A stretch of DNA of 27,776 nucleotides, taken from the IMG/VR virus record IMGVR_UViG_3300018080_000498, positions 1-27,776 of that record. One strand, given 5' to 3'. The notes below the pieces were generated by a model. The model was not told the DNA's origin. It saw only the letters and a list, made by a program, of their open reading frames with translations, and made no database searches. Below, piece by piece: positions 11,002-26,153 of this stretch. The stretch is from a virus. Position 1 is the first letter of the stretch; each line of letters begins with the position of its first letter. The translations under genes were made by a program, and so were the position numbers.

Positions 11002-11868
11002 ATGGCTAAGAAGAAAGCAGAAATAGTAGAAACACCAGACGAAACTCAGGAAGTTGTTGAAGAACAAGTAGCTGAGGAGCAAGTTGGGACTGAGGAAACC
11101 CAACCAGAGGAATCGTCTACCTCTGAAGAAGAAGCCTCTGAACTTACAGTAGAACCTGTTGAGGAACAACCTCAAGAGAGTGATACTGAAAAGCTTCGGT
11201 TACAGATGGAAAAGATGCAAGACTCTATGCAGAAACGTATAGATGAACTTACATACAGAGCCAAAAGTGCCGAAGAGCAAGCCAAGTCAAGTAAGGGCAA
11301 GACTTGGGACGATTTATCAGTTGATGAACTCAAAAAATACCGGACATATTATCGCCAAGAAGCGAATGATAGTATGGTAGATTTCTTAAACGATAAAATC
11401 GTAGAACAAAGTACAAAGCAACAAACTTTGGAACAAATTAAATTAGAAAGAGCTAATGCAATTAGAGTAAACTCATGGGCAAGAGTAGTGGAGGATTACC
11501 CAGAACTTAAAGATCCTAATTCGGAGCATTACAAAAAGACTGTTGAAGTTATCCAGCAGAATCCTTTGTTTGATGATATTAAACAAGCTCCTGAAGGTCA
11601 TGCAGCAGCAGCTAGATTGGCCGCTGAAGAACTCTTGCGAAGCAAGTTAACTTCTACCACAAAAAAGGTAAAAGCTGCTAAACAAAAGCTTCAGAGTGAG
11701 CAGAATAAATTAGGATTAGAATCTGGTAGTGGTAAACAGATAAGTGATTCTCCGTCAACTAAGTTGGAAAAACTTAGAGTAGCAGCTGAAAATTCTGGTA
11801 ATCCTTACTCAACCCAATGGAGAACTTACCTAAAAGCGTTAGACAATAAAGCTCAAGGAGGACGATAA
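11002..11868 (+). CDS. scaffolding protein
   Basis: The 288-residue protein directly precedes the capsid gene and has the scaffold signature. After MAKKKAEIVET comes a long, strongly acidic and disordered segment (roughly 15-65, repeated Glu with Gln, Ser, Thr, Pro). A coiled coil follows (LRLQMEKMQDSMQKRIDELT, residues about 65-90), then a helical middle and a basic, alanine-rich C-terminal region (KLTSTTKKVKAAKQKLQ), where scaffolds usually bind the coat protein. It would organise the procapsid and leave before or during packaging. The ribosome site is AAAAGGAGAG. Its stop overlaps the capsid ATG (TAATG), giving coupled production. No protease motif was seen. Confidence 0.78.
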   Translation: MAKKKAEIVETPDETQEVVEEQVAEEQVGTEETQPEESSTSEEEASELTVEPVEEQPQESDTEKLRLQMEKMQDSMQKRIDELTYRAKSAEEQAKSSKGKTWDDLSVDELKKYRTYYRQEANDSMVDFLNDKIVEQSTKQQTLEQIKLERANAIRVNSWARVVEDYPELKDPNSEHYKKTVEVIQQNPLFDDIKQAPEGHAAAARLAAEELLRSKLTSTTKKVKAAKQKLQSEQNKLGLESGSGKQISDSPSTKLEKLRVAAENSGNPYSTQWRTYLKALDNKAQGGR

Positions 11869-12776
11869 TGGCTGTAATTACAACATATGACGATGGTAAC
11901 AGGTTAGAAGATGTCATGATGGCAGTTGTTCAGTTGTCCCCAACAGATACTCCGTTTACTTCAGGTATTGCGAAAACAAAAGCAACAAACACTGATCACC
12001 AGTGGCCCGAAGATACACTGGCAGCTCGTGGGGATAACGCAGCAGTTGAAGGAAGTGCTTTCACTTTCGGGACTGTAACTGCACCAACAAGGATACAAAA
12101 CTGTACTCAGATATTTGAGAAAACTTTTCATGTTTCCTCAACTGAAAGATGGGTACGTGGTGCTGGTATAGATGATATGTATCAGTATCAAAAACAAAAA
12201 ACACTCATGGAAATTGCAAACGATATAGAACACGCATTTATCCGTGGTTCAAAAGCTAGTGGTAACGCTTCAACAGCTCGTAGAATGGCTGGTGCTTTAA
12301 ACTACATAACAACAAACGCAACTACGGTTGCTTCAGGTACAACATTAACAGAAAGCTTTTTCAATGGCTTAGCTGAACTCATTTACTTACAGGGCGGCAG
12401 ACCAGATGAAGTATATGTTGGTGCAAGATTGAAAAGAATAATTTCTAGCTACACTGCTGGAAACACAAAGAATATCGCAGCTGATGACAAAAGACTTGTC
12501 AACGCAGTTGATGTTTATGAATCAGACTTCGGTCTAATGAAACTTTTCCTTGCTCGTGATATGCTCACAGGAACAAATGCAAATGCTATTATGATGATTG
12601 AAAACAGAAAATTCAAGATGGCAGTTGGTGAACCTGTAAACGTATTACCGACAGAAGAAGTTGCACAAGACACAAATGGTACAAAAGGTGTTATACGTGG
12701 TGAATTAACACTTGAAGTTCTCGGTGAAAGACATAATGCAGCGGCATTTGCTCTCTCCAATGAATTTCCATCATAA
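11868..12776 (+). CDS. major capsid protein (SU10-like HK97 fold)
   Basis: The 302-residue protein opens with a short arm (MAVITTYDDGNRLEDVMMAV), then LSPTDTPFTSGIAKTKATNT and WPEDTLAARGDNAAVEGSAF. These are hallmarks of the SU10-type capsid family (DUF5309-like) within the HK97 fold. ERWVRGAGIDDMYQYQKQK and DIEHAFIRGSKASG continue the match, and GGRPDEVYVGARLKRIISSY marks the A-domain region. Length, position after scaffold and GGAGG ribosome site all fit. It forms the icosahedral shell. No N-terminal delta domain is present because the scaffold is a separate gene. Confidence 0.88.
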   Translation: MAVITTYDDGNRLEDVMMAVVQLSPTDTPFTSGIAKTKATNTDHQWPEDTLAARGDNAAVEGSAFTFGTVTAPTRIQNCTQIFEKTFHVSSTERWVRGAGIDDMYQYQKQKTLMEIANDIEHAFIRGSKASGNASTARRMAGALNYITTNATTVASGTTLTESFFNGLAELIYLQGGRPDEVYVGARLKRIISSYTAGNTKNIAADDKRLVNAVDVYESDFGLMKLFLARDMLTGTNANAIMMIENRKFKMAVGEPVNVLPTEEVAQDTNGTKGVIRGELTLEVLGERHNAAAFALSNEFPS

Positions 12777-12924: not shown

Positions 12925-12958
12925 GGGGGGTTTACAACTTAAGCCCCCCTTCACTTTT
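12925..12958 (+). terminator. strong intrinsic terminator after the capsid block
   Basis: GGGGGGTTT pairs with AAGCCCCCC (one G-T pair, 12925-12933 with 12941-12949), leaving a 7-nt loop. TTCACTTTT follows. The stem is the most GC-rich pairing in the window. It closes the scaffold-capsid-peptide block and should limit expression of the genes beyond, which would depend on partial readthrough because no good new promoter is visible before 12982. Confidence 0.72.
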
Positions 12959-12981: not shown

Positions 12982-13428
12982 ATGAAAAAAGGATTTTTTA
13001 GTAACGCACCAATATTTAACGAAGAAGAAGCGAAACATAAACTTATTATGGAGCGTATCGCTATTATGAAAATGGCTGATGAAGGTATCCATAGTAAAGC
13101 TATTCTAAATTATTGGTCAGATACTTCAGGAGAATGTCATGCATTTCCCATATTTACAACTGATACAGCTGCTGATATTTGTAATCGCTATAGTGATTTG
13201 TATCCTATTGAACTTGAGCAGATGATTAAAGATGTCTCAGATACTAACGAAAATCTATATAACTCGGATGGAATGAGTAAGTATAGAACCAAGATGTTAA
13301 AACTTAAAGTGCCAATTATTATGTATAGAGCCTTGCAATATTTAGACCCAGATTTTTGGGAGAATAGAAAAAACATGAATTGGGTAATGGAATATTTACC
13401 AAAACTAAAGGTGGGAACTAATGTCTGA
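12982..13428 (+). CDS. hypothetical protein after the capsid block (148 aa)
   Basis: The product starts MKKGFFSNAPIFNEEEAKHK and contains GIHSKAILNYWSDTSGECHA and FPIFTTDTAADICNRYSDLY. A helical C-terminus with KLKVPIIMYRALQYLDPDFW follows. It looks like a compact, mainly helical soluble protein. No motif identifies it. The ribosome site is poor, matching reduced expression after the terminator. Its end overlaps the next gene by eight bases. Position suggests a minor head or neck role. Confidence 0.65.
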   Translation: MKKGFFSNAPIFNEEEAKHKLIMERIAIMKMADEGIHSKAILNYWSDTSGECHAFPIFTTDTAADICNRYSDLYPIELEQMIKDVSDTNENLYNSDGMSKYRTKMLKLKVPIIMYRALQYLDPDFWENRKNMNWVMEYLPKLKVGTNV

Positions 13429-18271: not shown

Positions 18272-18493
18272 ATGGCTATTGATTTAACAAAAATGAGTGT
18301 TGAAGAGTTAAAAGCCCTAGCTTATGACATTTCTATTGAAATGGGTAAGAATAGGCAAAGTTTACAAATTGTTGAGGCTGAGATTGTAAAAAGAAATCAG
18401 CCAGTTGAAGCGATTAACGCTTCAGAATGTGAAGCAAAAAAGGGAGAAGAGGTAAAGGATGAAGCAGAATTTAAACCCTGCACAGAAAAATAA
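18272..18493 (+). CDS. small acidic coiled-coil-like protein (73 aa)
   Basis: The start at 18272 follows AGGGAGAGAGG. The sequence MAIDLTKMSVEELKALAYDI, then SIEMGKNRQSLQIVEAEIVK, is helical and resembles the short helical hairpins of many phage accessory proteins. The C-terminus is acidic (SECEAKKGEEVKDEAEFK). No function recognised. It overlaps the glycosyltransferase gene by 35 bases. Confidence 0.58.
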   Translation: MAIDLTKMSVEELKALAYDISIEMGKNRQSLQIVEAEIVKRNQPVEAINASECEAKKGEEVKDEAEFKPCTEK

Positions 18494-20834
18494 GTTATCT
18501 TTAGCAATGATTGTTAAGGACGAAACTACTGAGCTAGACTCATGTTTGGCTTCTATAGCAGATTTCGTTGACGAGATAGTAGTGGCTTGGAACGGAACTA
18601 ACGAGGAGACTAAACAAATACTAGAACGCTATTCCGCTAAGATAGTAAAATATCAATGGAATGACGATTTTGCCGAAGCTCGGAATGCTTCTTTTCAAGC
18701 TACTACTAATCCCTTTGTGTTATGGTTAGATTCAGATGATACAGTTGAGGGAGCAAAGAATATACCAACTCTTATGCAACAGTTTGATGACCCCCATTTA
18801 GGGGCATTATGGGCATACTATGATTATGACCAAGATGAGTATGGTAATACAACTATGGTAGTTTGGCGTGAAAGAATAGTTAGAAAAGATTGGTTCAGTT
18901 GGTCAGGTAAACTTCACGAAGAATGTTTAAAGACTAAAGACTGTATTCAATCCAAGATACCTAAAGAACAAATGTTTATAAAACATCATCCGCAGAAAGA
19001 TAGAATAAATCGTTCTGGAGAACGCAACTTAAGAATCTCTGAAAAGGTTTATAATGAAGAACACAATTCAGGTGATGTAGACGCTTTTAATGTATGGAAT
19101 TATGCCCGTAGTTTAAACGCTATGGGCAAGTTCCAAGAATCAGCAGGTATCTTTGAAGAATTTATTGCTATAACTTCTAGTGATGAACATAGGTATCAAG
19201 CTTGTTCAATACTTTCTGAAATATATCGGAAGATGCACCAATACGATAGAGCGTTAGATACAGATTTAAGAGCTATTAAGATTAAACCTAAATGGCCAGA
19301 TGCTTATTTTAATATGGCTCGTAACTACTTCTTAACTGAAGATTGGGATAACGTAATCTTTTACACAGATCTAGGGTACAAGATGGAGCATCCTAAAGAG
19401 AAGCTTCCAGTACCTTATGACCCATTAAGTTTCACAGTTAAGCCTTTAGAGCCTCTTACATACGCACTTGTTCAACAAGGTAAGTTTAATGAAGCCTTAG
19501 TTGCTTCACAGAAAGCTTTAAAGTTTTTACCTGATAACAAATATTTTAAAAATTGGATTAAGATACTTACTAAAGCTATTGAAAGAGAATCTGTAGAAAA
19601 AGCTTGTCTTACAGTTTATGAATATTTGCAAAAGAATGAAGGCGATAAGATAGAACATTTCGTAAACGCTTTACCAAAGATAGCTCAAGACCATCCACTT
19701 TTTGTTTGGTTACAAAACAAGCATAAAGATTGTGGTGATGGTTCTAACAGAATAATCATATATTGTGGAACAGGTATCATGCTTTGGGACGCTAAGAGTG
19801 CTGAGGAAGGTATCGGTGGCTCTGAAGAAGCTGTAATAAACATCTCACGAGAACTTGCTAAACAAGGTTGGGAAGTAGAAGTTTATAACAACTGTTTAGA
19901 CGAAGGTATCTATGACGGTGTATTGTGGCAAGGTGTTTGGCGCTACGACCAAAATAGGCCATGTCATACATTTATTGGGTGGCGTGACACAAGGTCTATT
20001 ATGTACGCTCCGAAAGAAAGTTATAAGGTTCTATGGTTGCACGATGTTACTAAGTACGAATATTTTACTGATGCACAACTTGCCGCTATAGATAAGATAT
20101 TTGTGCTAAGTAAGTATCACCGAGAGAATTTACCAGAAATTCCAGACGATAAGTTTTGGATAACTTCTAATGGGATTATTCCATCACACTTTGACGAGAA
20201 AGTTACACGGAACCCAAAAGCGTGCATTTATGCGAGTAGCCCTGATAGAGGTTTAGAACGTGTCTTAGAGAATTGGAAAGATATTAAGAAAGAAGTACCT
20301 GACGCAGAGTTGCATATCTTTTATGGATTTACCAAGAACTATGATGTGTTACACCGTTATAATCAAAACATGAAAGATTTTAAACAATACATCTTAGAAC
20401 TATTAGACCAAGATGGCGTTACTTATCATGGCATGGTAAATCATAAAGAGTTAGCTAAATGGTTTCTATATTGTGGACTTTGGTTATACCCAACAAGCTT
20501 TACAGAAATCAGTTGCATAACAGGTATGAAAACACAAGCCGCAGGAACTGTACCAATAATTAGCAACGTAGCGGCATTAGATGAAACAGTTAAGTTCGGT
20601 GTCAAAGTAAACGACCCTAAAGACGAAGCTGAACTTAAAAGATGGAAAGAACAAACAATTTACTATTTAAAGAACCCAGACAATCAAGATGACATTCGTA
20701 AAGATATGATGGAATGGGCTAGATACACATATGATTGGAAACGGGTTGCAAAAAATTGGAGTGACTTTTTTAAAGATGCTAGCAAGAGTGAAACCAGATT
20801 ACAGCGAAGCGATGCTCAGAAAGAACAGGTTTAG
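18459..20834 (+). CDS. two-domain glycosyltransferase (GT2 + TPR + GT-B)
   Basis: The 791-residue protein joins three parts. Residues 13-110 are a GT-A, family-2-type domain: LSLAMIVKDETTELDSCLAS, the IVVAWNG strand, DDFAEARN and WLDSDD with the metal-binding DxD at 91-93. Residues about 200-370 are TPR-like helical repeats (NYARSLNAMGKFQESAGIFE, DRALDTDLRAIKIKPKWPDA). Residues about 430-780 look like a GT-B transferase: GIGGSEEAVINISRELAKQG, then YASSPDRGLERVLENWKDIK, and ELHIFYGF. Two transferase domains could add successive sugars or one could be regulatory. Start ATG 18459 follows GGAGAAGAGG. Targets may be the virion fibres, phage DNA or the host surface. It opens a three-gene glycan cassette inside the structural operon. 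Confidence 0.82.
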   Translation: MKQNLNPAQKNKLSLAMIVKDETTELDSCLASIADFVDEIVVAWNGTNEETKQILERYSAKIVKYQWNDDFAEARNASFQATTNPFVLWLDSDDTVEGAKNIPTLMQQFDDPHLGALWAYYDYDQDEYGNTTMVVWRERIVRKDWFSWSGKLHEECLKTKDCIQSKIPKEQMFIKHHPQKDRINRSGERNLRISEKVYNEEHNSGDVDAFNVWNYARSLNAMGKFQESAGIFEEFIAITSSDEHRYQACSILSEIYRKMHQYDRALDTDLRAIKIKPKWPDAYFNMARNYFLTEDWDNVIFYTDLGYKMEHPKEKLPVPYDPLSFTVKPLEPLTYALVQQGKFNEALVASQKALKFLPDNKYFKNWIKILTKAIERESVEKACLTVYEYLQKNEGDKIEHFVNALPKIAQDHPLFVWLQNKHKDCGDGSNRIIIYCGTGIMLWDAKSAEEGIGGSEEAVINISRELAKQGWEVEVYNNCLDEGIYDGVLWQGVWRYDQNRPCHTFIGWRDTRSIMYAPKESYKVLWLHDVTKYEYFTDAQLAAIDKIFVLSKYHRENLPEIPDDKFWITSNGIIPSHFDEKVTRNPKACIYASSPDRGLERVLENWKDIKKEVPDAELHIFYGFTKNYDVLHRYNQNMKDFKQYILELLDQDGVTYHGMVNHKELAKWFLYCGLWLYPTSFTEISCITGMKTQAAGTVPIISNVAALDETVKFGVKVNDPKDEAELKRWKEQTIYYLKNPDNQDDIRKDMMEWARYTYDWKRVAKNWSDFFKDASKSETRLQRSDAQKEQV

Positions 20835-21279
20835 GTTAGATCATATTCCTGATGAGTATATGCACAAGAGAATCCTAATTATAGGTGATGCTCAAATGGT
20901 AGAAAGTAGCTACCTAAGAGATAAAGGTTTCACTAATGTAGTATCTTCAGAAAGAGATTATCCATTTGGTTTGCAACTCAGTTTTGATATAGAAGATGAA
21001 TTTTTAGACCAGAAATTTGATTTAATATATTGCTCTCATGTACTAGAACATTGTATGTCCGCATATAAGGCGTTACATAATCTTAAAATGATGTTAAATG
21101 GCGAGCTTATGATATTCGTGCCAGCAGAAGAAGATTGTTGGATAGAGGATTATCATATAAGCTGTTTCACGTCTAACGGGTGGCACAATTTAATTAAGAG
21201 GGTGGGTTTAAGATTACTTGAGAGTAAAGAGTTTAAGAATAATGATAGAAACGAATATTATTTTAAGGTGTCAATATGA
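20776..21279 (+). CDS. SAM-dependent methyltransferase-like protein
   Basis: The frame opens at 20731, inside the previous gene. I list the ATG at 20776 (MLARVKPDYSEAML, GGAG 14 bases upstream), but 20812 (MLRKNRFRLDHIPDEYMHKR) is also possible, since no site is strong. The protein has a class I-like Rossmann layout: KRILIIGDAQMVESSYLRDK (motif I strand and loop, without the usual GxGxG), NVVSSERD, and the diagnostic FDLIYCSHVLEHC, a variant of the D(L)I..SHVLEH motif. LNGELMIFVPAEEDCW follows. Such small enzymes methylate sugars or nucleotides in glycan clusters. The gene lies between two glycosyltransferase genes, so sugar methylation is the likeliest role. Confidence 0.68.
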   Translation: MLARVKPDYSEAMLRKNRFRLDHIPDEYMHKRILIIGDAQMVESSYLRDKGFTNVVSSERDYPFGLQLSFDIEDEFLDQKFDLIYCSHVLEHCMSAYKALHNLKMMLNGELMIFVPAEEDCWIEDYHISCFTSNGWHNLIKRVGLRLLESKEFKNNDRNEYYFKVSI

Positions 21280-21854
21280 TAGGTGTAGCGATTCCCTGTT
21301 TTAAACTAGACGATTATTTAGAAGCTGTTATGAAACAGTTTGAAGAATGGAATCGTATTGCACTTGTAGAAAAAGATTTCAAGTTTCATGATCAAGTTGA
21401 AGTAAGGAACGATGTTATTTCAACTTTAAAAGATTGTGACTTTGTTTTCACTATAGACGCAGATGAGTTTTTACTTAAAGAAGACCAACACAAAATAGTG
21501 AAGACAATGAAAGAGGGCGATTATGATGCTGGCTTTTGTCCCGTGATAGATTATACAAGAGATTTAAAACATAGATATAAACGTGATGGAGAACATATGC
21601 CAGTTGTGATAATTGATCCCAAAGAGGTATCATTTTATGAAACTAGATGTGTCAATTATAAGAAACCTGTTTATTTTAGGGATATTTATTTACATCATCT
21701 GGGTTTTACTTTTGATGACGATAAACTGGGATGGAAAAAACGTAACTACTGGAATACAGGAAATAGACAAGAGGTTGAAGAAATCATGCAAAAAGAAACC
21801 GAACCTTGCGAACTTCCTGAAGAAATTATGGAGGTTTTAAATGCTAATTTTTAG
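21276..21854 (+). CDS. short glycosyltransferase-like protein (192 aa)
   Basis: It starts in an ATGA overlap with the methyltransferase gene. MIGVAIPCFKLDDYLEAVMK is a GT-A-like first strand. CDFVFTIDADEFLLKEDQHK carries a DxD motif (DAD) as in family-2 or related transferases and is placed as expected. FRDIYLHHLGFTFDDDKLGW supplies the later His-rich segment seen in similar enzymes. At 192 residues the nucleotide-binding part between strand one and the DxD is short, so this may be a reduced or damaged enzyme. Its end contains the ribosome site of the next gene, which overlaps by 14 bases. Confidence 0.62.
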   Translation: MIGVAIPCFKLDDYLEAVMKQFEEWNRIALVEKDFKFHDQVEVRNDVISTLKDCDFVFTIDADEFLLKEDQHKIVKTMKEGDYDAGFCPVIDYTRDLKHRYKRDGEHMPVVIIDPKEVSFYETRCVNYKKPVYFRDIYLHHLGFTFDDDKLGWKKRNYWNTGNRQEVEEIMQKETEPCELPEEIMEVLNANF

Positions 21855-22866
21855 TGAGATGAAAACACAAGTGGGAGAAAGGATACAGAAGCAAGATGCT
21901 AACTTCTTGGATAAGATAGGTAATTGGATTAATTATAGATATGATGATATTCTTTCCCGTAAAGATTGGCCTCAGCTCTATAGAGTAGCAAACATAACAG
22001 CAACGAGCGGACAAGAAACTATGGGACTTCCTTATGATGCTGCTTATGTTATTAGTGCAGTTGACAGAATAAATAATATAGTTTTAACTCCATTAGATGC
22101 TTCAAGAGGTGGAAGGTTTTATGCAAATTATCAGAATTCACCTGGATTACCTAAACAATACTGGGTAGAAGGTGTAACAATGCGTAATAGTATTTCCGAG
22201 TTAGGTGGACCTGTTCCTGGATATAACATAAAAGCTTTTACATCTAATCCTTCAGCTCCTAGCGTAGACGTAACTATATGGGGTATTAATGATACTGATG
22301 GCTCAGAAATAGTTGAAACTCAAACTGTATCTGCAACTCCAGTAACTTTCACAAAGAGTTTTGCTAGAGTGGATAGAGTAAGCAAAAGTAGTGATGACCC
22401 TTATGCAGGTACTAGTTTCGAAAATACTGTTAACATCCAGTACTATACTGGAATAGGTGGACTTTTAGGTACTATAGCAAATATTAGTGGAGCTTCATTT
22501 TCATCAAGTTATCTTAATTTACACTTAAATCCTAAGCCTAATTCAAACGTAGTATATACAGTAACATATAAAACTAATCAAATAAGGTTGCAGGAAGAAA
22601 ACGATGTGCCAATAATCGATTGTTCACAAGCATTAGTCATAGGAGCTTATGCAGATGCACTTAAAGAACAACGACAATTTACAAAAGCTAAAGCACTAGA
22701 ATACAATCCAAACGACCCAGATGACCCATCAACTTATGAAGGTAAAGTAAGACAATTAATTAATCAGTTAGAACAATGGTCAGAGAACGTACCACAAGCA
22801 GTTCCGATGGTTGACCCGTTACCGATAGACACAGTTTGGAGAGAAGGAACTACGATAATTAATTAA
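21841..22866 (+). CDS. neck/head-tail adaptor protein (341 aa)
   Basis: The start at 21841 follows GGAGG within the previous gene. MLIFSEMKTQVGERIQKQDA, then NFLDKIGNWINYRYDDILSR, KDW is a helical opening typical of P22-like adaptor or neck proteins that dock under the portal. LPYDAAYVISAVDRINN, the beta-rich middle (GYNIKAFTSNPSAPSVDVTI) and the helical ending (QLINQLEQWSENVPQAVPMV) continue that type. It precedes the nozzle-like protein as in P22-type gene order (adaptor before stabilisation proteins). Exact homology to a named gene was not determined. Confidence 0.68.
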   Translation: MLIFSEMKTQVGERIQKQDANFLDKIGNWINYRYDDILSRKDWPQLYRVANITATSGQETMGLPYDAAYVISAVDRINNIVLTPLDASRGGRFYANYQNSPGLPKQYWVEGVTMRNSISELGGPVPGYNIKAFTSNPSAPSVDVTIWGINDTDGSEIVETQTVSATPVTFTKSFARVDRVSKSSDDPYAGTSFENTVNIQYYTGIGGLLGTIANISGASFSSSYLNLHLNPKPNSNVVYTVTYKTNQIRLQEENDVPIIDCSQALVIGAYADALKEQRQFTKAKALEYNPNDPDDPSTYEGKVRQLINQLEQWSENVPQAVPMVDPLPIDTVWREGTTIIN

Positions 22867-24444: not shown

Positions 24445-25668
24445 GTGGCAGTTCTAAATAGAGGAAAAACATTTACGGTAAATGAGACCGTAACAAATAC
24501 TAAGCTTCATCAGCTTATAGATAACGGGACTGTATCAGATATAGACCAAGCAGACATAGCGGCTGCACATGGTTTAACGATTAGAAGTGGAGCAAACCCT
24601 TCTGATACAGATGCACTTTGGGTAGACACTTCTGGTGTGGTAGACATACTCAAAGTTTATGATGGGACAAGTTGGACAGAAGTTCCTACTATACCTTCTA
24701 GTGGCCTTTCAACAGGTGACTTGATGGTATGGGACGGTACTAACTGGACTACTGGCGTAGATATGACTTTGCAGATAGCAAGTCAGGCACAAGGAGATAT
24801 TTTATATTATGATAGTTCAGATTGGGTAGTTTTGCCTGCAGGAACAAATGGACAGTTCTTAAAAACTCAAGGTGCAGCAGCAGATCCTATTTGGGCAGAT
24901 GCCCCAGCGGTAGTTGGTGAAGGACGATATGGATTAGATTGTCTTAGGAACTCATCAACTGTTATAGATGTAACAGCAGGAGAAATTAATGTTGGTGGGA
25001 CTATTGTTACTAAAACAGCTACAACTTCTCTTACTTTAAGTGTAGGAGCAGATTGGGCAAGTGGCATAAGTGGTCAAGCTGTAAGCACTTATGGATATGT
25101 TGGTATAGATGCTTCAGGTAATATTAAACTTGATACAACAGCTCCGACTCATTCTGATTTTGCTTTAACATTAACTAATTCACCTAAAGCTTATGCGTCA
25201 TGGAGTGGAACTACTTATAAAGTTATAGGTTGGTTTTATATGAACGCAACAGGTTCAGGTGAACTTGATACATATGGAGTAAGTAATGTTAAAGTTGGTG
25301 ATACATCTAATACTATTAGTAGTATAGGTTCTACAGATATTTCTACTGGCTCTGGTAGTGCAACCTTGATGAATGCTGATATGGAACTTAGATTTTATTG
25401 TACAGGTAGACCTGTAAAAGTTAATTTTGCAGCTCCTTTAAGAGATGCTAGTGGCAGTAATGCGTTCTCCTATATTTTTGTAGACGATATTCAACAAGTA
25501 CGAACTTATCATACTGGAAACGTTAATAATCCGCATAGTCTAGTATTCGAAGATAGACTTACAGAAGGTGTTCATAAAATAGATATTCGTTGGTCAACTT
25601 CAGGTGGGACTATATGGCAAGAAGGGGCAACGTCTGGAAATCGTGTAATAGTAGTAAGTGAGAAATAA
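24445..25668 (+). CDS. second tail fibre protein (407 aa)
   Basis: Translation begins at GTG 24445 after GGAGG. The N-terminus (VAVLNRGKTFTVNETVTNTK) and IDQADIAAAHGLTIRSGANP are a typical fibre opening. It is followed by repeated Gly-Asp-Trp units (GDLMVWDGTNWTTG, GDILYYDSSDWVVLPAGTNG, QFLKTQGAAADPIWADAP). The C-terminal third (MELRFYCTGRPVKVNFAAPL, IFVDDIQQVRTYHTGN, KIDIRWSTSGGTIWQEG) looks like a jelly-roll receptor-binding domain. It lies well away from the 970-residue fibre and shares no obvious sequence with it, so the virion may carry two fibre types. Confidence 0.74.
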   Translation: MAVLNRGKTFTVNETVTNTKLHQLIDNGTVSDIDQADIAAAHGLTIRSGANPSDTDALWVDTSGVVDILKVYDGTSWTEVPTIPSSGLSTGDLMVWDGTNWTTGVDMTLQIASQAQGDILYYDSSDWVVLPAGTNGQFLKTQGAAADPIWADAPAVVGEGRYGLDCLRNSSTVIDVTAGEINVGGTIVTKTATTSLTLSVGADWASGISGQAVSTYGYVGIDASGNIKLDTTAPTHSDFALTLTNSPKAYASWSGTTYKVIGWFYMNATGSGELDTYGVSNVKVGDTSNTISSIGSTDISTGSGSATLMNADMELRFYCTGRPVKVNFAAPLRDASGSNAFSYIFVDDIQQVRTYHTGNVNNPHSLVFEDRLTEGVHKIDIRWSTSGGTIWQEGATSGNRVIVVSEK

Positions 25669-26153
25669 TGGTTAAACGTAAACATACTTTTAATAATATT
25701 AAATATAAAGAACTAATAGCTTTTATTAGAGAACATTGCACAGAATGTTATATAGGAACTAATGAAAGTCTTGACAGAGAACTTGACTGGTTCTTAGCTA
25801 ACAAAAGACTTTTTACTATTAGAAGCAATGGACGGCTTATAGCAATATGTGCGTTCATGGTATTAGAAAGCCCTGAAGAATTAATTACAGGAGAATGGCC
25901 GATAGAAGATGTTGAAGGAAAATATTTATTTGTCAGGTTATTAGGTATACATTCTGCCGCTAGGAATAGAGGTATAATGAGTTATATGGGAACAAAATTA
26001 TTGAGTTGGTTTGATAATTTAGAATATTTAATTTACAGACGTAATGGAAAGCATGGTAAGTTAAAGATAAGAAACATGGAAAAGTTTATTAATAAGGAGG
26101 TATCAAATGGGTGGCGGCGGACAGGAAATGCCCCAAGCTCCTTCTCCAGGTAA
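25668..26153 (+). CDS. GNAT-like acyltransferase (161 aa)
   Basis: The TAATG overlap with the fibre stop fixes the start. FTIRSNGRLIAICAFMVLE supplies a GNAT beta-3/beta-4 hairpin. KYLFVRLLGIHSAARNRGIM is the acetyl-CoA-binding strand and loop (motif A, with RNRGI in place of Q/RxxGxG). NLEYLIYRRNGKHGKLKI completes the domain. GNAT enzymes transfer acyl groups from CoA to amines; phage copies modify fibres, glycans or host proteins. It follows the second fibre directly, so fibre modification is attractive but unproven. Its last 47 bases overlap the next gene. Confidence 0.6.
   Translation: MVKRKHTFNNIKYKELIAFIREHCTECYIGTNESLDRELDWFLANKRLFTIRSNGRLIAICAFMVLESPEELITGEWPIEDVEGKYLFVRLLGIHSAARNRGIMSYMGTKLLSWFDNLEYLIYRRNGKHGKLKIRNMEKFINKEVSNGWRRTGNAPSSFSR

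Follow-up and report, generated by a model that had tools for sequence, protein, structure and literature searches.

Phages are already known to glycosylate their own virions: the mycobacteriophages Che8 (gp110), Corndog (gp38) and Myrna modify capsid and tail tube with enzymes of their own (Freeman et al. 2023, as cited in PMC12363180 and PMC12691614). The glycosyltransferase (GT) GmaR attaches GlcNAc to flagellin, a substrate that its tetratricopeptide repeats (TPR) are proposed to recognise (PMC9638930). Protein A064R of chlorovirus PBCV-1, in which two glycosyltransferases and a methyltransferase are joined, builds the capsid glycan (PMC7826918), and A197 of STIV (PDB 2c0n), a small, essential GT-A enzyme, is thought to glycosylate the major capsid protein (PMC10551542). 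Here we analysed a whole viral contig of 27,776 bases (IMG/VR record IMGVR_UViG_3300018080_000498, called the window below). On its plus strand, where all window genes given here lie, three open reading frames (ORFs) overlap in series at 18459-20834 (791 amino acids, aa), 20731-21279 (182 aa) and 21276-21854 (192 aa); we named the products GT791, MT182 and GTA192. GT791 is a two-headed glycosyltransferase of the order GT-A, TPR, GT-B. The cassette is probably a soluble, cytoplasmic phage system that glycosylates one of the phage's own structural proteins, O-linked or through another side chain, during assembly. Judged from its genes, it would be a variant of the virion glycosylation known from mycobacteriophages.

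A first-pass annotation of this DNA had described three overlapping ORFs led by a GT2-TPR-GT-B fusion, and both the overlaps and the fusion were confirmed. GT791 matched Pfam Glycos_transf_2 (3.5e-15, residues 14-143), TPR_11 (7.8e-08) and Glycos_transf_1 (4.7e-07, residues 594-747), all above the curated cut-offs. The GT-A (GT2) domain, residues 14-143 (18498-18887), is also supported by conserved columns and phmmer, and contains the DxD motif D91-S-D-D94 (18729-18740) with H153 and E154 just downstream. The TPR helical domain, residues 209-361 (19083-19541), is recognised by Pfam TPR_11/TPR_12 and as helices in the model. The GT-B (GT4) domain, about residues 430-775 (19746-20783), is supported by Glycos_transf_1 and conserved columns and carries the motifs GGSE (453-456), H528, R597 and E683. 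The protein has a GT2 GT-A fold with a DxD, this GT-A part is joined to a TPR/helical domain, and the GT4 GT-B fold has two Rossmann domains. By Pfam, the C-terminal head is GT4-like and not GT41.

The AlphaFold2 (AF2) model of GT791, made from 17 sequences (window and relatives), had a mean pLDDT of 90.1 and a pTM of 0.64, which makes the single domains confident and their relative arrangement less certain. In Foldseek, the nearest solved folds of the N-terminal half were the peptide S-glycosyltransferases SunS/ThuS (7msp, 3.1 A over 297 columns, TM 0.71 to target). Those of the TPR-GT-B part were SPINDLY (SPY) and O-GlcNAc transferase (OGT), with E 1e-13 to 1e-16. SunS/ThuS, SPY and OGT are all protein glycosyltransferases. 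The GT-B fold matched 7qsg, with TM 0.70 to target. By sequence (phmmer), the GT-A head was closest to the GT domain of GmaR (3e-13), with SunS at 1.3e-6, and the GT-B domain alone had no match among PDB sequences. As modelled, GT791 resembles a GmaR/SunS-type enzyme combined with an OGT-like arrangement through a common TPR. Structure prediction and family searches, the checks proposed with the annotation, support the GT2, TPR and GT4 assignments, and the predicted kinship with protein glycosyltransferases makes its idea of TPR docking onto a structural protein more credible.

Full-length relatives of GT791 were found by profile scans in many viral contigs. They belong to a group of mostly uncultured tailed phages, known mainly from metagenome and environmental records, with capsid proteins 28-88% identical to that of the window. 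A capsid-protein scan was run separately to avoid the bias of a GT-based search; it found 26 contigs, several of them near-copies, with a pattern built from the capsids of GT-bearing phages. The GT, fused or as two ORFs, was present in all 25 of these contigs with DNA past the capsid gene, usually a short way downstream of it. It was not found in any of five related outgroup phages (about 30-33% capsid identity, including Pelagibacter phage HTVC106P). A single branch of the capsid tree, with an SH-aLRT of 100, separates GT-bearing phages from these five. GT and capsid trees agree with a Mantel r of 0.86 (0 of 5000 permutations as high) and have 17 of 28 splits in common (at most 3 in shuffles). 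The simplest reading of these trees is that an ancestor acquired the GT once and that it was then passed on, mostly vertically, together with the capsid gene. The fusion called unusual in the first-pass annotation is real, but it is no isolated oddity; it is a core gene of a phage group.

A bacterial origin of the full fusion was rejected: the only full-length match in a bacterial genome, L037 (a Patescibacteria metagenome-assembled genome), is phage DNA, because a phage capsid gene adjoins the GT. This contig (WARV01000001.1), filed as Patescibacteria, holds the virion operon of the phage group and is either misbinned or a hint at the host. Other bacterial matches were mostly GT2-TPR alone, of about 360 aa. 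Bacterial GT2-TPR genes beside flagellin were also considered as support for protein targets, and no shared stretch was found in 11 Bacillales genomes.

The conserved genomic partner of the GT is the major capsid protein gene, at 11868-12776 in the window (PHROG 1328, E 2e-65). The genes of most relatives run capsid, p148, GT, accessory sugar genes, fibres and neck. Iterative hidden Markov model searches for the small ORF p148 (12982-13428) located it at all GT-bearing loci (33 of 33), almost always as the first ORF past the capsid gene; the five outgroups yielded no copy even with relaxed thresholds. It has no Pfam match above cut-off. Going by this distribution, p148 may be a candidate adaptor or acceptor. 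The window and L008 depart from the usual order in having the GT behind the fibre genes. The GT is also encoded in two pieces in L003, L026 and L027, and as two ORFs in L021, L022 and L074-L077. In L003 (3472-7788) and L026 (9992-14032) the break separates the two GT-B halves at their hinge, and the pieces flank a GroEL-like ORF of 522 aa that was identified by eye and from the record annotation.

In the stretch of about residues 128-158 of the window capsid protein, GT-bearing capsid proteins have a loop, near window residue 153, that is shorter than in the outgroups by roughly 10-20 residues, and conserved Ser/Thr at 128, 131, 152 and 156; the serines at 128, 131 and 156 are mostly missing from the outgroups. 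From the alignment, the loop and these serines may be acceptor or docking sites, or simply clade markers. An N-x-T in the capsid loop was rejected as a diagnostic marker, because three of the five GT-less outgroups have N-x-S/T counterparts. The capsid gene itself is in two pieces in L014 (7652-9208) and L067 (24-1492), and a homing-endonuclease-like ORF stands beside it in L014 and L037 (4104-4637); introns or inteins are possible.

Across the 17 aligned GT791 relatives, D91, D93, D94, H153, G453, G454, S455, E456, H528, R597 and E683 are invariant and E154 is nearly so. R597 is the phosphate-binding Arg and E683 the first Glu of the EX7E motif, and both are retained. Pairs of GT791 genes show synonymous change close to or at saturation, against non-synonymous differences of 0.26-0.31 (about 0.30 for the closest GTA192 pairs), so the ORFs are not chance products. 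Omega was 0.14-0.20 where computable, and by this measure the GT791 and GTA192 genes are under purifying selection.

The third gene product, GTA192 (21276-21854; alignment, AF2 and Foldseek), was rightly described as a reduced GT-A protein. GTA192 itself falls under the Pfam cut-off, and its L008 orthologue is above it (4.6e-09). A D-x-D-E motif, D61-A-D-E64 in the window, is invariant across six sequences. The AF2 model (pLDDT 87.8, pTM 0.86) matched the GT-A folds SunS (1.3e-6), SpsA and TarS in Foldseek. Between the second strand and its DxD helix, GTA192 lacks about 27 residues that a longer paralogue in L005 has; orthologues were found in L005 (two), L008, L010, L011 and L060. The second protein, MT182 (20731-21279 as listed, true start probably 20776 or 20812), is only weakly methyltransferase-like, with Methyltransf_11 at 24.4 bits against a cut-off of 21.2. 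No relatives of MT182 or GTA192 were found among named phages.

From 5497 to its right end, the window carries a plus-strand block with terminase, portal, capsid, neck and fibre-type genes, and the cassette stands within it. The neck/adaptor gene (21841-22866, 341 aa; the copy of a relative matches SU10_adaptor, 1.7e-12) has its ATG inside the 3' end of the GTA192 gene, with GGAGG just upstream. Judged from the overlap of the ORFs and from this neck start, the three cassette genes and the neck gene are very probably co-transcribed. A promoter scan gave fewer matches than in shuffled DNA and is therefore uninformative. Upstream of GT791 lie an 89-aa coiled-coil/transmembrane ORF and then a 73-aa ORF. 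The position assigned earlier, between a holin-like gene and the neck gene, is thus right on the neck side, but the holin assignment is weak (PHROG holin, E 0.097) and the 73-aa ORF intervenes. Elsewhere in the block, a terminator-like hairpin of 10 pairs (12925-12949) between the capsid gene and p148 could lower downstream expression. A GNAT acetyltransferase-like gene (window 25668-26153, L002:258-692, L009:16008-16496) is kept in the tail/internal-protein module, and could serve further virion modification or encode an internal virion protein.

A census was made of 144 ORFs within 5.5 kb after the GT on 27 contigs, with 42 ORFs after the capsid gene in the five outgroups as a control. Glycos_transf_2 was found in 23 of the 144, alongside GT4-type transferases, methyltransferases, GDP-mannose 4,6-dehydratase, DegT aminotransferase, UDP-sugar dehydrogenase, cytidylyltransferase and LicD; none of the 42 control ORFs matched these families. 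L011 has a GDP-mannose dehydratase with an aminotransferase, which together produce GDP-perosamine in known pathways, as well as a cytidylyltransferase with LicD, and L001 has a Polysacc_synt_2 dehydratase with a UDP-sugar dehydrogenase. From these comparisons, the two-headed initiator appears constant while the later genes turn over; each phage would therefore carry a different outer glycan. In L060 (12429-16005), a GT2-methyltransferase fusion and a radical-SAM/SPASM protein suggest further protein or sugar chemistry. The complete relative L002 (13430-15609) has an annotated nicotinate phosphoribosyltransferase adjoining a phosphoribosyl pyrophosphate (PRPP) synthetase, possibly for NAD salvage.

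The analysis establishes the architecture, folds, motif conservation, synteny, capsid co-inheritance, purifying selection and accessory-gene turnover. In the mechanism that we propose, the TPR of GT791 would hold the acceptor protein, the GT-A head would attach the first sugar and the GT-B head of the same chain would add a second. GTA192 could then add a further sugar and MT182 could cap or adjust the glycan, these last two steps being the weakest for the window. The acceptor would most likely be the major capsid protein or else a small protein associated with the capsid, for which p148 is a candidate. We infer this acceptor, the linkage and the order of steps, and also a benefit that could be shielding, adhesion or a change of host range. 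Decoration of virion proteins, as first suggested, agrees with the virion-operon location, capsid co-inheritance, protein-GT folds and nucleotide-sugar genes, but the conserved neighbours are the capsid gene and p148, not fibres or holin. The earlier observation is confirmed overall and its interpretation partly supported.

Several findings weigh against glycosylation of a virion protein by this cassette. The second Glu of EX7E is Lys (K691, 20529-20531) in the window and most relatives; it is Glu in L012, L014, L016, L023 and L037, and Asp in L074. A check for loss of catalytic residues, which the first-pass annotation had asked for, found the DxD, HE, GGSE, phosphate-binding Arg and first Glu retained and this second Glu replaced. 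In GT-B enzymes this second position contacts the nucleotide, and K691 may for that reason mark an altered donor site and not a dead enzyme. Domain placement differs between GT791 and OGT/SPY, which keeps the overall TM-scores low (about 0.3). Proximity of the GT to the capsid gene is not universal, since L003, L026 and L027 have it between terminase and portal; the same-place check on relatives found the GT in all 25 capsid-scan contigs, but the window copy is itself displaced. Ser/Thr content is not raised in the capsids of GT-bearing phages (0.179 vs 0.196). Motif I of MT182 is degenerate (ILIIGDAQ), with ILIIGDAQMVESS where GxGxG is expected for a class I S-adenosylmethionine (SAM) enzyme, and no MT182 orthologue was found in the relatives. 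Since the Pfam match lies mainly over the C-terminal half and the GxGxG is missing, methyltransferase activity is doubtful on this sequence.

Phage glycosyltransferases often act on the host O-antigen, and the LicD, GDP-mannose dehydratase and aminotransferase genes of the relatives are typical of surface polysaccharides. The cassette might thus alter host surface glycans late in infection, for receptor masking, superinfection exclusion or release of progeny from debris. We regard this as unlikely. Neither a GtrA-type flippase (0/25) nor an initiating phosphoglycosyltransferase (PF02397) was found in 25 records, several of them fragments, which limits these negatives; a role in polysaccharide export or initiation was rejected on the latter result. 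GT791, MT182 and GTA192 have no obvious transmembrane segment, and the protein-GT fold of GT791 and co-inheritance with the capsid gene also argue for a virion target. Lysogenic conversion of the gtr seroconversion type is disfavoured, because an integrase was found in only 1 of 17 records (again with fragments among them), as well as by the lack of GtrA.

Like SunS and GmaR, enzymes with OGT-like folds accept many kinds of protein substrate, so the cassette could instead glycosylate host proteins as a takeover function. This is somewhat less probable still, given the virion-operon position, the overlap with the neck gene and the fact that, over deep divergence, the GT has been kept one-to-one next to or near the capsid gene. 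Another account, in which the GT domains have lost catalysis and act as a scaffold or chaperone in assembly, would fit the EX7K of the window and most relatives and the degenerate motif I of MT182. We consider it very improbable: the DxD, HE, GGSE, phosphate-binding Arg and first Glu are invariant or nearly so in 17 divergent sequences, canonical EX7E is retained in the five relatives named above, and sugar-nucleotide genes co-occur. Phage glycosyltransferases commonly serve to glycosylate the viral DNA (PMC12619734), for instance in T4-like and other hypermodified phages, but we reject this role as the least probable account, since a thymidylate-synthase-family (hydroxymethylase) gene was found in 0 of 17 records (some fragments, but including the complete ctxSa4 and ctf1B273) and the virion-operon location and TPR with protein-GT fold point elsewhere.

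Beyond virion glycosylation by this cassette, we put forward, as an evenly balanced proposal, an undescribed phage group with capsid glycosylation as a core trait. In it, a GT-A-TPR-GT-B enzyme would be inherited with the capsid gene and p148, and a hot-swap cassette would set the surface sugar of each phage apart, with GDP-perosamine-type and LicD/phosphate-linked decorations among those predicted. If true, an ancestral capsid-coupled trait would have outer sugars evolving by gene exchange, like bacterial capsules and O-antigens. The cassette would also provide glycoengineering with a soluble bifunctional protein glycosyltransferase, and it would allow the role of virion sugars to be studied in a phage, where no animal immune system plays a part. 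As far as the accessible literature goes, phage virion protein glycosylation has been shown only for some mycobacteriophages.

Like the mycobacteriophage systems, the cassette would be a set of phage-encoded glycosyltransferases coating the virion. Mycobacteriophages were absent from the tblastn matches of GT791 (E 1e-5), and the accessible part of the literature on those phages describes neither a two-headed TPR fusion nor a capsid-coupled cassette. GmaR of Listeria and SunS/ThuS share with the N-terminal half of GT791 a GT-A followed by a helical/TPR C-terminus, and act on a peptide or, as with flagellin, a self-assembling structural protein, which resembles the proposed virion target. Unlike GT791, they lack a GT-B head and come from a bacterial or prophage context, not a virion operon. 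OGT and SPINDLY (GT41) likewise have TPR then GT-B and act on proteins, whereas the C-terminal head of GT791 is GT4-like by Pfam, an extra GT-A head precedes the TPR and the overall TM-score is low. PBCV-1 A064R and A111/114R are multi-domain virus-encoded glycosyltransferases for the major capsid protein glycan, with a methyltransferase cap in A064R (PMC7826918). They belong to a eukaryotic algal virus and make an N-linked glycan, and the likeness is analogy, not homology. To our knowledge, neither has a TPR. STIV A197 is a reduced viral GT-A like GTA192 and matches it in Foldseek (E 1e-3), but the match is weak (TM 0.37) and the virus archaeal. No phage description of a GT-A-TPR-GT-B fusion or of a capsid-coupled exchangeable glycan cassette was found in the open-licence literature. 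Set beside these systems, the two-headed architecture, the lineage-wide coupling to the capsid gene and the swappable cassette appear to be new.

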